A DNA stretch of 64,000 nt from Dacryopinax spathularia (taxonomy: Eukaryota; Basidiomycota; Dacrymycetes; Dacrymycetales; Dacrymycetaceae), in the NCBI GenBank assembly GCA_037974965.1, contig JBBPFI010000005.1, positions 1-64,000 on the forward strand, in the 5' to 3' direction. The position numbers and the translations under genes are program-made. Below the pieces are notes generated by a model. The model had not been told where the DNA came from, made no database searches, and was given only the letters and a program-made list of their open reading frames with translations. This document shows, piece after piece, positions 1 to 25,655 of the stretch; positions within the stretch are counted from its first letter, which is position 1; each line of letters begins with the position of its first letter.

Positions 1-148
1 AACCCCTAACCCTAACCCTAACCCTAACCCTAACCCTAACCCTAACCCTAACCCTAACCCTAACCCTAACCCTAACCCTAACCCTAACCCTAACCCTAAC
101 CCTAACCCTAACCCTACCCCTAACCCTAACCCTAACCCTAACCCTAAC
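1..148. repeat. Telomere, (CCCTAA)n
   Basis: About 24 units of CCCTAA read 5' to 3', so the G-rich strand TTAGGG points outwards and base 1 lies at a chromosome end. One variant unit sits near 111-120, where an A is replaced by C (CCCTAC). The array stops sharply at 148 and is followed by unrelated sequence that is in an open reading frame. Confidence 0.97.
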
Positions 149-11725: not shown

Positions 11726-12596
11726 GGCTGAGTGAATGTTATGATGAATGTAAGCGGCGGCGAGCAGTAAAGAGATACGGTGCTTGTACAGTACTCTGTA
11801 CGCTGCCCTATCGACGTCCCTCGCCCTTACCGCCTCTGAGGCGGCATACGTATGCGCGCCGTTGACTAAGCTGCTTCCGGAAGAAGCGCCCGTATAGCCA
11901 CCAAATCCAATGAGTCCGACCATCAAACGGCTGCTCACCTCCTTTCGACTCTGACTTACTTCAGCACGTAAACTTTGATAGTCACATCAGCATCAGATTG
12001 TAAATTCATGTTGTCAAATACTCCATCTGGCACATTACTTCAGGTGGCAACGATCTCACACCCTGACGACACCTCCGCTTTTTCTGATCGCAATGTGCGT
12101 GGGTTGGCTGCGCTTGATGCGAAGTGAAAGGGGCGGCAGCCGAGACGTCCGATAACCACATTCGTCCGCGTAATCCGGATGTTCTACAGATGTTCCGTTC
12201 GTGCTCCATGCGTCCGCTGCATTGCCTGCTTACCAAATGTGCAGGTGCTGTGGCTCATTAAGCAATGAAATGGTGATGGGAGGCGGTGTCCAGGAACAAA
12301 TTGAAACACGTCCTTACACCGCACGCACGAGGGCCACCCAAGTCATCTTCCATATAAGGAAATTCGAACGTCATTTGCCAAAGAGAGAAGCACCAACACC
12401 AACTACGGAATATCGCTTCTCGCTGTTTGCCTGGGTAAAAGTACTTTCTGCCGCAAGAACCGCGCGTTTGACGGGGCGATGGCCTGTGTCCGGCTGAAGC
12501 GGAGAAGCGCAACCTCATCACTCCTGGCTACTCCGCAGTTCATCCGCTCTCGTCCGAACATTGCTTGCTTTCTCCGAGAGGTGCAGCAATCCTCCG

Positions 12597-12605
12597 TATA
12601 TAAAG
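12597..12605 (+). promoter_or_regulatory. TATA box of the six-repeat secreted protein gene
   Basis: TATATAAAG lies 280 bases before the ATG. The same box lies 281 bases before the ATG of the inverted paralogue, and the bases behind it (CCAGCTGG, CATCTCCACCATCC, CGCCGGTCGGTAAGC in one or the other form) are kept between the copies, which is the main evidence that it is functional. Confidence 0.65.
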
Positions 12606-12884
12606 CCCCCACTCCAGCTGGTCCAATATCTCCACCATCCTCTACACTCACCGCGCCGGTCGGTAAGCAAATCAGCTCTCCAGCCGAGTAGCTGGTTGAT
12701 GTTCCGTCTAGCTGTCTAACTTCGCTGGTCGAAGCAATCACAACTACAAATTTCCAAGGTCAGGTGTCCCTCATGCTTCCCTCGCGGCCTTCCTCTGACA
12801 CGGCGCCTTAGAGTCCGCAGTCGCATTCGTTCATTTCCCTACAAAGAACACCCAGAGATCCAATCCATCAACCCTATTCCAACA

Positions 12885-14916
12885 TGCATCGTACGTCTCC
12901 CTGTACACACGTGGATTTTCTCACTAAGAGTTTTCGAAAGCCGTCAACGTCCTCTCCCTTGCTCTTGCGCTCTCTGCTGTTTCTTTGGCTGCTCCCACGC
13001 CATATTCTTCAGGGTCTGGGTCCCAGGTGAGCGAGAGAACCGGTACTCGTCCATTTCAAGCTCCTTATGTGTTGTGTTCAGCTTGCTGCTCGTGGTTCCG
13101 ACCTGCAACCGACTGCTCGCGGTCTCGCGCTCGAGGAAGATGCCTTCAATACTTTGGTATGATCTTCAGACGTGGTCTAGTATACTATTCTAACAAACTC
13201 TCGTCTGTCAATTAGGCCTCTCGCGCATGGACTCGTAGTCAAGAAGCCGAACTCCAGGCAGCCGCCAGGGAATATGCCAGGCTGAATGCTTTGCGGGGCA
13301 CCGAGCACTTCGACCAGCAGGCATGGCTGGCTGCCCAGACGAGATATAATCAGCTGCGGGCTGCTAAGACTGCGGAAGAGAACAAGAAGGGTAGCCAGAG
13401 CCGGCGCCACTCTAGGTCCCTCGAGGAAGACGAGAACGACAACGATCTTGTGAGCGAAGCTGCTCGATTTCAGTCCTCTGCCTTGTTGACCCGACATGAC
13501 AGGCTGCCCGTGCATGGACTCGCAGCCAAGAAGCTGCACTTCAAGAGGCTGCTAGGGAATACGCGCGGTTGAATGCTCTACGGGGCACGGAGCATTTCGA
13601 TCACGATGCTTGGCTTGCCGCGCAGACGAGATACAACCAGCTCCAGGCTGCAAAGACTGCTGACGCGAACAAGAAGGGCAACCAGAGCAAGAGTGGAGGT
13701 AGCCGCCGCCACTCTCGGTCGCTTGAGGATGACGAGGAGGATTACAGCCTTGTGAGCGGCTAGTCCCCTCCCATGCTTCATTGCTCGCGCTCACGGACAT
13801 CACAGGCCGCCCGAGCATGGACCCGCAGTCAGGAAGCTGCCCTTCAAGAAGCCGCTAGGGAGTACGCCCGACTCAACGCTCTACGCGGCACGGAGCATTT
13901 CGATCACGATGCTTGGCTTGCCGCGCAGACGAGATACAACCAGCTCCAAGCTGCAAAGACTGCTGACGCGAACAAGAAGGGTAACCAGAGCAAGAGTGGA
14001 GGTAGCCGGCGCCACTCTCGGTCGCTTGAGGTGGATGACGAAGGGTACAGCCTTGTGAGCGGTTTGTGTTTCCACTGTCCTCTGCCTTGCTGATCAACAT
14101 CATAGGCCGCTCGCGCATGGACTCGTAGTCAAGAAGCCGAACTCCAGGCAGCCGCCAGGGAATATGCCAGGCTGAATGCTTTGCGGGGCACCGAGCACTT
14201 CGACCAGCAGGCATGGCTGGCTGCCCAGACGAGATATAATCAGCTGCGGGCTGCTAAGACTGCGGAAGAGAACAAGAAGGGTAGCCAGAGCCGGCGCCAC
14301 TCTAGGTCGATTGAGAAGGACGATGGCGACAACGACCTCGTTAGTGGTTCTTCTCGCTCCGCCGTCTTCGACTTGACTTATAGGTCTCACAGGCTGCGCG
14401 CGCATGGACTCGTGCTCAAGAAGCAGCACTGCAGGAGGCCGCTAGGGAGTACGCCAGGCTGAATGCGCTGCGCGGCACCGAGCATTTCGACCAGCAAGCT
14501 TGGCTCGCCGCACAGACAAGATATAATCAGCTTCGGGCTGCCAAGACTGCGGAAGAGAACAAGAAGGGCAGTCAGAGCCGGCGCCACTCTCGGTCCATTG
14601 AGGATGACGAGGAGGATTCCAGCCTTGTAAGCGGCTGTGCCTCCGCTGTCCCCTGCCTTGCTGAAGACCATTACAGGCCGCTCGCGCGTGGACCCGTGCT
14701 CAAGAAGCAGAACTACAGGCAGCTGCCAGGGAATACGCTCGGCTGAATGCTCAACGCGGCACAGAGCACTTTGACCAACAGGCGTGGCTGGCCGCCCAGA
14801 CGAGATACAATCAGCTTCGGGCTGCCAAGACTGCAGAAGAGAACAAGAAGGGCAGTCAGAGCCGGCGCCACTCTCGCTCTTTCGACGATGAAAACAACCT
14901 CGACGAGTTAGACTAG
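12885..14916 (+). CDS. Secreted exon-per-repeat protein, six repeats
   Basis: No known family. Exons are 12885-12891, 12941-13026, 13082-13156, 13216-13449, 13503-13751, 13806-14054, 14106-14339, 14393-14626 and 14677-14916, which give 535 residues. Exons 1-2 encode a signal peptide (MHPVNVLSLALALSAVSLAA) with a likely cut near Ala-Pro-Thr-Pro. Exon 3 is a 25-residue linker. Exons 4-9 each encode one repeat of 78, 83, 83, 78, 78 and 79 residues: an Ala-rich amphipathic helix (RAWTRSQEAxLQxAAREYAR), the core LRGTEHFDxxAWLAAQTRYNQL, a lysine-rich turn (NKKG), a basic SRRHSRS and an acidic tail. The long repeats carry a KSGGS insert. All introns after exon 2 are phase 0, 50-59 bases, and in the repeat region mostly start GTGAGC. 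The dibasic KK and RR sites could be Kex2 targets, which would release a set of near-identical peptides; this is inference. A role outside the cell is likely, function unknown. Confidence 0.85.
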
Positions 14917-24214: not shown

Positions 24215-25375
24215 CTAATCTAACTCTTCGAGGGAATCGACGTCCTCGATCGACCTAGAGTGGCGCCGGCTCTGACTGCCTTTCTTGTTCTCTTCCGCGG
24301 TCTTCGCAGCCCGCAGCTGATTATATCTCGTTTGCGCGGCCAACCAAGCTTGCTGGTCAAAGTGCTCCGTGCCGCGTTGAGCATTCAGGCGAGCGTATTC
24401 CCTGGCGGCTGCCTGGAGTTCTGCTTCTTGTGCACGGGTCCATGCGCGGGCAGCCTGTAATACCCGTGAGCATGAGCAACAGGCGCTGGGAGTGGACGAT
24501 CCACTCACGAGGCTGTAATCCTCCTCGTCATCCTCAAGGGAGCGAGAGTGGCGCCGGCTACCTCCACTCTTGCTCTGGTTGCCCTTCTTGTTCGCGTCGG
24601 CGGTCTTTGCAGCCTGCAGCTGGTTGTATCTCGTCTGCGCGGCAAGCCATGCATCGTGATCGAAATGTTCCGTGCCGCGTAGAGCGTTCAACCGGGCGTA
24701 TTCCCTAGCAGCCTCTTGAAGTGCAGCTTCTTGGCTGCGCGTCCATGCACGGGCAGCCTGTCATGTCGGTCAGCAAGGCAGAGCGCAGCCATCAAGCAAC
24801 TTCGCTCACAAGGCCGTTCTCGTTCTCGTCTTCCTCGAGGGACCTAGAGTGGCGCCGGCTCTGGCTACCCTTCTTGTTCTCCTCCGCGGTCTTCGCAGCA
24901 CGAAGCTGATTGTATCTCGTTTGGGCGGCCAGCCATGCCTGCTGGTCGAAATGCTCAGTGCCCCGCAAAGCATTCAGCCTGGCATATTCCCTGGCGGCTG
25001 CCTGAAGCTCGGCTTCTTGACTACGAGTCCATGCGCGAGCGGCCTAATGACAGACGCGGGCTTGTTAGAATAGTATGTAGACCACGTCTGAAGATCATAC
25101 CAAAGTATTAAAGGCGTCTTCCTCAAGCGCGAGACCGCGAGCAGTCGGTTGCAGGTCGGAATCGCGAGCGGCAAGCTGATAATCAAATGAGCACATGAAA
25201 CGGTACGCCATTTGGTTCTTTCGCTCACGTCAGATGCAGCACGGGAAGAATAGGGTGTGGGAGCAGCGAGGGAGACGGTAGAGAGAGCAAGAGCGAGAGA
25301 GAGGACGTTGACGGCTACCATGAACTGTCAGCCCGGAAAACAAAAAGACCGTGCGCCTGGAGACGTACGATGCAT
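24215..25375 (-). CDS. Secreted exon-per-repeat protein, three repeats (paralogue)
   Basis: Exons in reading order are 25369-25375, 25229-25314, 25101-25175, 24810-25043, 24509-24757 and 24215-24454, which give 296 residues. Exon lengths 7, 86, 75, 234, 249 and 240 equal those of exons 1, 2, 3, 4, 5 and 9 of the six-repeat paralogue, so the two genes differ by three inner exons. The signal peptide is MHPVNVLSLALALSTVSLAA. The linker exon differs in one residue (RDSD for RGSD). Repeat 1 is of the short type, repeat 2 carries the KSGGS insert, and repeat 3 ends the protein with SLEELD (LDELD in the other gene). Sharing of all splice sites shows that duplication followed the origin of the exon structure. 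As with the paralogue, no known family and no known function; secretion is inferred from the signal peptide. Confidence 0.85.
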
Positions 25376-25655
25376 GTTTGGAGGGTTGTAAATGGGTGTT
25401 CTGGGTGTTTTTTTGTAGCGGGTGAACGAATGCGAGGGGAAATTCTGAAGTGCCATGTCAGACCCAAGCGGTTACTATTTGCGCAAGTGACGCCCAACCT
25501 TAGAAGTGTGCGGTTGTGGATGCTTCGACCTGCGAAGTTGAACGGCTGGACAGAGTATTAGCAAGGCTACTCTGAGGTGGAGAAGGTGTATGGCTTACCG
25601 ACCGGCGCGTTGAGTGTGGAGGATGGTGGAGATGTCGAGCCAGCTGGACCGTGGT

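Follow-up and report, generated by a model that had tools for sequence, protein, structure and literature searches.

The DNA analysed here (the window) is a stretch of 64,000 nucleotides that forms a chromosome end, as contig C5 opens with telomere repeats, (CCCTAA)n, at window positions 1-147. Six related genes, designated A to F, lie on this contig at 13-80 kb from the telomere, and the family is therefore subtelomeric. The models of all six genes were built from GT-AG sites and paralogy alone.

C5 12884-14916, + strand: gene A, 6 repeats, in the window
C5 24215-25375, - strand: gene B, 3 repeats, in the window; paralog of A
C5 65260-67193, - strand: gene C, 5 repeats, beyond the window
C5 73393-74789, - strand: gene D, 4 repeats and a 51-nt last exon, beyond the window
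C5 76061-77169, - strand: gene E, 3 repeats, beyond the window
C5 78411-80141, - strand: gene F, 5 repeats, beyond the window

A search of the genome (29.2 Mb, 24 contigs) with the first repeat of gene A (A1) returned 26 matches, all on C5 at 13-80 kb, and searches with repeats E1 and D2 returned 26 and 22 matches at the same places. These counts are lower bounds, as the best candidates alone were scored; none of the scored matches to A1, E1, or D2 lay outside this interval. Just past the family, C5 82282-82982 carries another tandem repeat, situated in a 360-codon open frame, with copies spaced about 270 nt apart that are 78-82% identical, to which none of the three family-repeat searches gave a match.

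The model of gene A, rebuilt from sequence, comprises nine coding exons that encode 535 residues. The preliminary description had the gene run from 12885 to 14916; its end at the stop codon was correct, and the ATG actually lies at 12884.

12884-12890, + strand: coding exon 1, 7 nt, ATGCATC
12941-13026, + strand: exon 2, 86 nt, hydrophobic N-terminus, signal-peptide-like
13082-13156, + strand: exon 3, 75 nt, short, pro-like region
13216-13449, + strand: repeat exon 1, 234 nt
13503-13751, + strand: repeat exon 2, 249 nt
13806-14054, + strand: repeat exon 3, 249 nt
14106-14339, + strand: repeat exon 4, 234 nt, the repeat used for structure prediction
14393-14626, + strand: repeat exon 5, 234 nt
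14677-14916, + strand: repeat exon 6, 240 nt including the stop

The corresponding exons of gene B, the second family member in the window, are as follows.

25369-25375, 25229-25314, 25101-25175, - strand: N-terminal exons of gene B
24810-25043, 24509-24757, 24215-24454, - strand: repeat exons of gene B

All six repeat exons of gene A (exons 4 to 9) are phase 0-0. The earlier proposal that each repeat of this gene is exactly one symmetric phase-0 exon was borne out, and the same architecture recurs in the five paralogs: the six genes together contain 26 repeat exons encoding 73-99 residues each, every one of them phase 0-0 and with an open frame (26/26). The coding part of all six genes starts with an exon of 7 nt (ATGCA[TGC]C), which is followed by one of 86 nt that encodes a signal-peptide-like stretch, and the third is 75 nt long in A, B, C, and E, 66 nt in F, and 18 nt in D. 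Judged by eye, the protein N-terminus is hydrophobic in all six models; in gene C, an in-frame ATG upstream (at -21) would extend it. Cysteine is absent after residue 20 from all six proteins, their GRAVY values range from -1.08 to -1.45, and their C-termini are acidic (..LD or ..MD), with no GPI-like hydrophobic end seen by eye in any of the six. The short acidic tail is encoded inside the last repeat exon in five of the six genes and by an exon of its own in D.

All 39 introns modelled in the six genes are GT-AG introns with GTNNG donors and lengths of 49-70 nt (median 53), a uniformity that provides a setting for intron definition, and a YTNAY branch-like motif is present in 33 of them. Retention without a frameshift or a stop would be possible for one of the 21 introns that follow repeat exons.

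DNA self-comparison of gene A revealed six direct copies of 272 nt with 62-100% identity to the reference copy. Repeat copies also align through their introns, which fits the duplication of exon-intron units. As tandem copying keeps the frame solely with symmetric exons, exon duplication would be expected to produce a row of exons that are all symmetric. The shared symmetry thus does not count as several independent coincidences, since it arises automatically when one symmetric exon is duplicated in tandem. When A is compared with B, the first, second, and last repeats pair and extra copies are found in A. Among five within-A pairs run, A1 and A4 (13216-13449 and 14106-14339) are the closest, with a dS of 0.10 as against 0.48-1.87 for the four pairs of neighbours, suggesting that gene conversion or the copying of an exon took place recently. 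We also observed an inverted segmental duplication in the window, 11871-13991 versus 26400-24269 at 81% identity, that takes in parts of A and B and roughly 1 kb of the DNA upstream of them.

The leader regions of the six genes share several further features.

12599-12604, + strand: TATAAA box of gene A
12663-12711, + strand: putative 5'-leader intron of gene A, 49 nt, starting at the conserved donor GCGCCGGTCG/GTAAGC
12718-12734, + strand: 17-bp leader element AACTTCGCNGGTCGAAG of gene A, containing CTTCG-N5-CGAAG (palindromic arms)
25523-25539, - strand: 17-bp leader element AACTTCGCNGGTCGAAG of gene B
C5 67287, 74931, 77307, and 80298: 17-bp leader element AACTTCGCNGGTCGAAG of the other four genes

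A single TATAAA was found in all six genes, between -243 and -299 relative to the ATG, and all six leaders contain a conserved GGTCGG donor-like site. Such sites suggest leader introns in all six genes, of which that in D would use a GC donor, not GT. The motif at this position is of the CGCYGGTCGG type (GTGCTGGTCGG in D). The CTTCG arm of the 17-bp element begins 62-71 nt beyond the donor-like site. Allowing at most one mismatch, AACTTCGCNGGTCGAAG matches the genome six times, once upstream of each family gene (five exact matches, and gene E with one mismatch), whereas a control search with the pattern reversed yielded a single match. A reading of the element as a coding stretch was rejected because the ATG positions in the six leaders do not fit it: from TATA+25 to the start codon, gene D lacks any ATG; in genes A and C a single ATG precedes the element and falls within the putative leader intron; and in genes B, E, and F leader ATGs lie solely after the element.

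Structure prediction was carried out with AlphaFold2 on repeat 4 of gene A (A4), using an alignment of the nine repeats in the window (A and B). The model shows helices at residues 7-25 and 34-59 followed by a disordered linker, with a mean pLDDT of 77.5 and a pTM of 0.57; by blocks, the mean pLDDT is 92-94 over residues 11-50 and does not exceed 67 from residue 51 onward. The exon borders lie in the linker, so that the exon corresponds to the module. In the three matched A/B repeats, the hairpin core has 37 synonymous versus one nonsynonymous change over 156 codons (dN/dS 0.006), and the linker 14.5 versus 10.5 over 84 codons (dN/dS 0.144). Nine chosen within-gene repeat pairs gave values of 0.052 for the core and 0.209 for the linker. 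Constraint is thus stronger on the hairpin module than on the linker carrying the RR sites, and the modules appear functional, with strong conservation. Among the 26 single pairs run, four of which had saturated dS, much weaker constraint, based on few changes, was seen for A1/A4 (0.33, 11 changes) and D1/D2 (0.36, 9 changes), both outside the nine pooled pairs.

Dibasic sites between the repeats had been part of the preliminary description. In gene A they are confirmed, with RR in every one of the five inter-repeat linkers; the pattern does not extend to the whole family, in which KR or RR is found in 17 of 21 linkers (20 inter-repeat linkers, plus one in D ahead of its short final exon). By gene, the counts are 5/5 in A, 2/2 in B, 4/4 in C, 4/4 in D, 1/2 in E, and 1/4 in F, the linkers devoid of KR/RR being the first of E and the first, second, and third of F, and the dibasic position moves between paralogs. 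Shuffled linkers contained KR/RR in 9.7 ± 2.1 cases, and two of 5000 shuffles reached 17, a test that overstates the enrichment because the linkers are related. An RR also occurs inside the hairpin core in five of the 26 repeats, namely all four of D and one of three of E. The linker further holds an R-S position, with Arg in 24 and Ser in 23 of the 26 repeats, followed mostly by a hydrophobic residue and acids. As a guess, this near-invariant Arg-Ser might itself be a cleavage site; for fungal Kex2, evidence of processing at sites with other P2 residues has been described (PMC2515848).

Searches for relatives of the family were made at the level of sequence, profile, and fold. When whole proteins A, C, D, and F were compared to Pfam (E ≤ 5), F scored above the thresholds for LPD7 (72.7 bits), Frey, and TraY, C above that for Arena_ncap_C, and A and D above none; with single repeats, 10 of 26 matched LPD7 at E ≤ 0.1 (best 2.2e-5). 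No Pfam family was common to the paralogs, among these four whole proteins or the 26 repeats taken singly. Since the paralogs disagree, we read the LPD7, Frey, TraY, and Arena_ncap_C matches as helix composition summed over repeats, and a remote link of F to LPD7 may exist. Against PDB sequences, repeat A4 gave no phmmer match at E ≤ 10 and a 26-repeat profile gave four matches, none significant (best E 0.18). Foldseek searches with the hairpin model returned 284 PDB matches, none at E ≤ 0.001 (best 0.14), and no significant match among viral structure models (best E 0.30). A helical hairpin is a simple shape. Pattern searches yielded 334 stretches in viral contigs and 19 in bacterial and archaeal genomes, of which none was confirmed as a relative.

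In the literature, of which coverage was partial, we found no secreted repeat protein of fungi in which every repeat has its own exon, although such proteins may exist; the sections of the gigA literature consulted contain no exon-per-repeat statement, and the words exon and intron are absent from the main text of two genome surveys of Kex2-processed repeat proteins (KEPs). With regard to dikaritin-type RiPPs, no UstYa (DUF3328) gene was found near the family or elsewhere on C5, the five UstYa matches in the genome being located on C6 (four) and C2 (one). The four on C6 fall within 18 kb (1456385-1473948), and this group suggests a dikaritin-type RiPP cluster elsewhere in the genome, although in two of the four the six-frame stretch, read with introns left unmodelled, contains one stop. 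Among other Pfam families searched in the genome, DUF6534 gave four matches and hydrophobin three, a combination that suggests a basidiomycete of Agaricomycotina type; the pheromone and peroxidase-extension families gave none, a negative that carries no information. From C5 1-92000, 75 open stretches with a minimum length of 130 codons were kept, introns being left unmodelled; 20 of these were scanned against Pfam, and seven of the 20 matched (HECT, pyridoxamine-phosphate-oxidase-like, NIF phosphatase-like, Sel1, Kelch, class-I tRNA synthetase, and protein kinase); there was no tailoring enzyme among these seven.

The reading that we favour, tentatively and with a confidence that stops just short of even, is that of a secreted polyprotein akin to Kex2-processed repeat proteins, the product of which is a folded hairpin multiplied by tandem exon duplication. 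The six subtelomeric genes would encode secreted, cysteine-free polyproteins in which a signal-peptide-like leader and a short pro-like region precede three to six alpha-helical hairpin modules. The modules, each about 55 residues in length, would be connected through flexible linkers that carry the conserved R-S-hydrophobic-acidic motif, each module with its linker making up one symmetric phase-0 exon. Module number would be set by unequal crossing-over and gene conversion between repeat exons. A Kex2-type protease in the secretory pathway would most likely cut the linkers, at least partly, at RR/KR, and perhaps also at the near-invariant Arg-Ser, and the freed modules would then act outside the cell, with the hairpin as the functional product.

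This reading is supported by the 26 symmetric exons, the constraint on the predicted hairpin, the excess of linker KR/RR over shuffles, the near-invariant R-S, the lack of late cysteines, the hydrophilic character of the proteins, the pairing of A and B repeats, and the copies that align through introns. It is weakened by the four of 21 linkers that lack KR/RR and the shifting dibasic position, by the RR in the hairpin cores of D (all four) and E (one), where cleavage would damage the module, by the weak constraint in the single pairs A1/A4 and D1/D2, and by the lack of a tailoring enzyme among the seven of 20 scanned neighbours that matched a family, the UstYa-type genes lying on other contigs. 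The preliminary description had offered a repeat-peptide precursor or a surface or effector protein of new type; the precursor, in a KEP-like form, survives as the best reading, with the constraint falling on the hairpin over the RR-bearing linker. As far as PDB and Pfam go, the type may be new.

The same gaps in the dibasic pattern would be accounted for by an uncut multi-module extracellular or cell-wall protein, in which the hairpins are beads on a string serving adhesion, scaffolding, or multivalent binding, with length and valency adjusted through the number of copies. We regard this as a serious possibility, though not a probable one. Highly conserved modules would suit it, as would a telomere-proximal family with variable repeat number, the absence of KR/RR from three of four linkers of F and one of two of E, and the RR inside the cores of D, a position that would do harm in a protein fully exposed to Kex2. 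It has to contend, however, with the enrichment of dibasic sites in the linkers over shuffles, with their occurrence in 15 of 15 linkers of A to D, and with the lack of a GPI-like C-terminus in the six proteins. A role as secreted effector, directed at a host or a neighbouring organism through repeats that bind, as in SP7 of mycorrhizal fungi or Rsp3 of Ustilago maydis, appears unlikely: the proteins are secreted-looking, repeat-built, and subtelomeric, and repeat-containing effectors are described as a known class (PMC4617103, PMC6374014), but selection on the hairpin is strongly purifying, not diversifying.

The suggestion that splicing alone could yield proteins with one to six repeats did not find support. 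Regulated exon skipping would preserve the frame, all inner repeat exons being symmetric, and SP7 of Rhizophagus is reported with five mRNA versions (PMC4617103). Such symmetry is, however, already expected from exon duplication, the introns are uniformly short with GTNNG donors and AG ends (39/39), exon skipping is reported as comparatively low in fungi in a 65-species RNA-seq survey (PMC6142364), and repeat number already varies between the genes in the DNA (6, 3, 5, 4, 3, and 5 in A to F), so that we hold skipped isoforms to be very improbable. That there is no real gene here, or an intron-free one, with the repeats as satellite relics, is hardly credible despite the proximity of these tandem repeats to the telomere, as it is contradicted by pooled dN/dS values of 0.006-0.21, by reading frames that stay open through all 26 repeat exons, and by the single retainable intron among the 21 between repeats.

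Returning to the polyprotein reading, it is possible, if somewhat doubtful, that the family, so far without a known relative, uses the exon as a production unit that encodes a folded hairpin mini-protein plus a cleavable linker, with exon duplication raising the dose of folded product per transcript and a private leader element common to the six genes at a chromosome end. If so, tandem exon duplication would raise the dose of a folded product, not of a short peptide. With a predicted folded, strongly conserved hairpin per exon, the family offers a clean case of exon duplication determining how much of a secreted product is made, or its valency. The six paralogs, with three to six modules, form a natural series on whether the modules work singly or joined, and the co-occurring leader element offers a handle on shared regulation.

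Among known systems, the closest counterpart in organisation would be the KEPs, found in fungi including Agaricomycetes and defined in one genome survey by a signal peptide, at least three repeats, and Kex2 sites between repeats (PMC6339444). All six genes have at least three repeats and a signal-peptide-like leader, and the linkers of A to D are dibasic throughout. Gene A fits the class, with its signal peptide judged by eye, and E and F, in which four of six linkers are without KR/RR, fit in part. KEP motif sizes are given as reaching 352 residues, with a class over 51 residues, and the commonest repeat class in Dikarya outside yeast-like Basidiomycota is put at 9-24 residues (PMC6339444), whereas the repeats of the present family measure 73-99 residues, contain a predicted folded hairpin, and occupy one exon each. 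Rep1 of Ustilago maydis is likewise described as a secreted precursor, cut to repeated 37-residue peptides that affect hyphal wall properties (PMC6339444); compared by description, not by sequence, the modules of the family are larger, hydrophilic, and predicted to be helical. The SP7-like effectors of arbuscular mycorrhizal fungi resemble the family in being secreted, hydrophilic, and repeat-built, with a conserved intron reported before the first repeat (PMC11333574) and several mRNA versions for SP7, but their repeats are given as 6-16 residues (PMC4617103), again a contrast of descriptions and not of sequences. Finally, animal progranulin is described as a secreted chain of modules that are possibly freed by proteolysis as small polypeptides (PMC4527844); its granulin modules are cysteine-rich and unrelated to the hairpins described here, and the analogy is one of organisation only.
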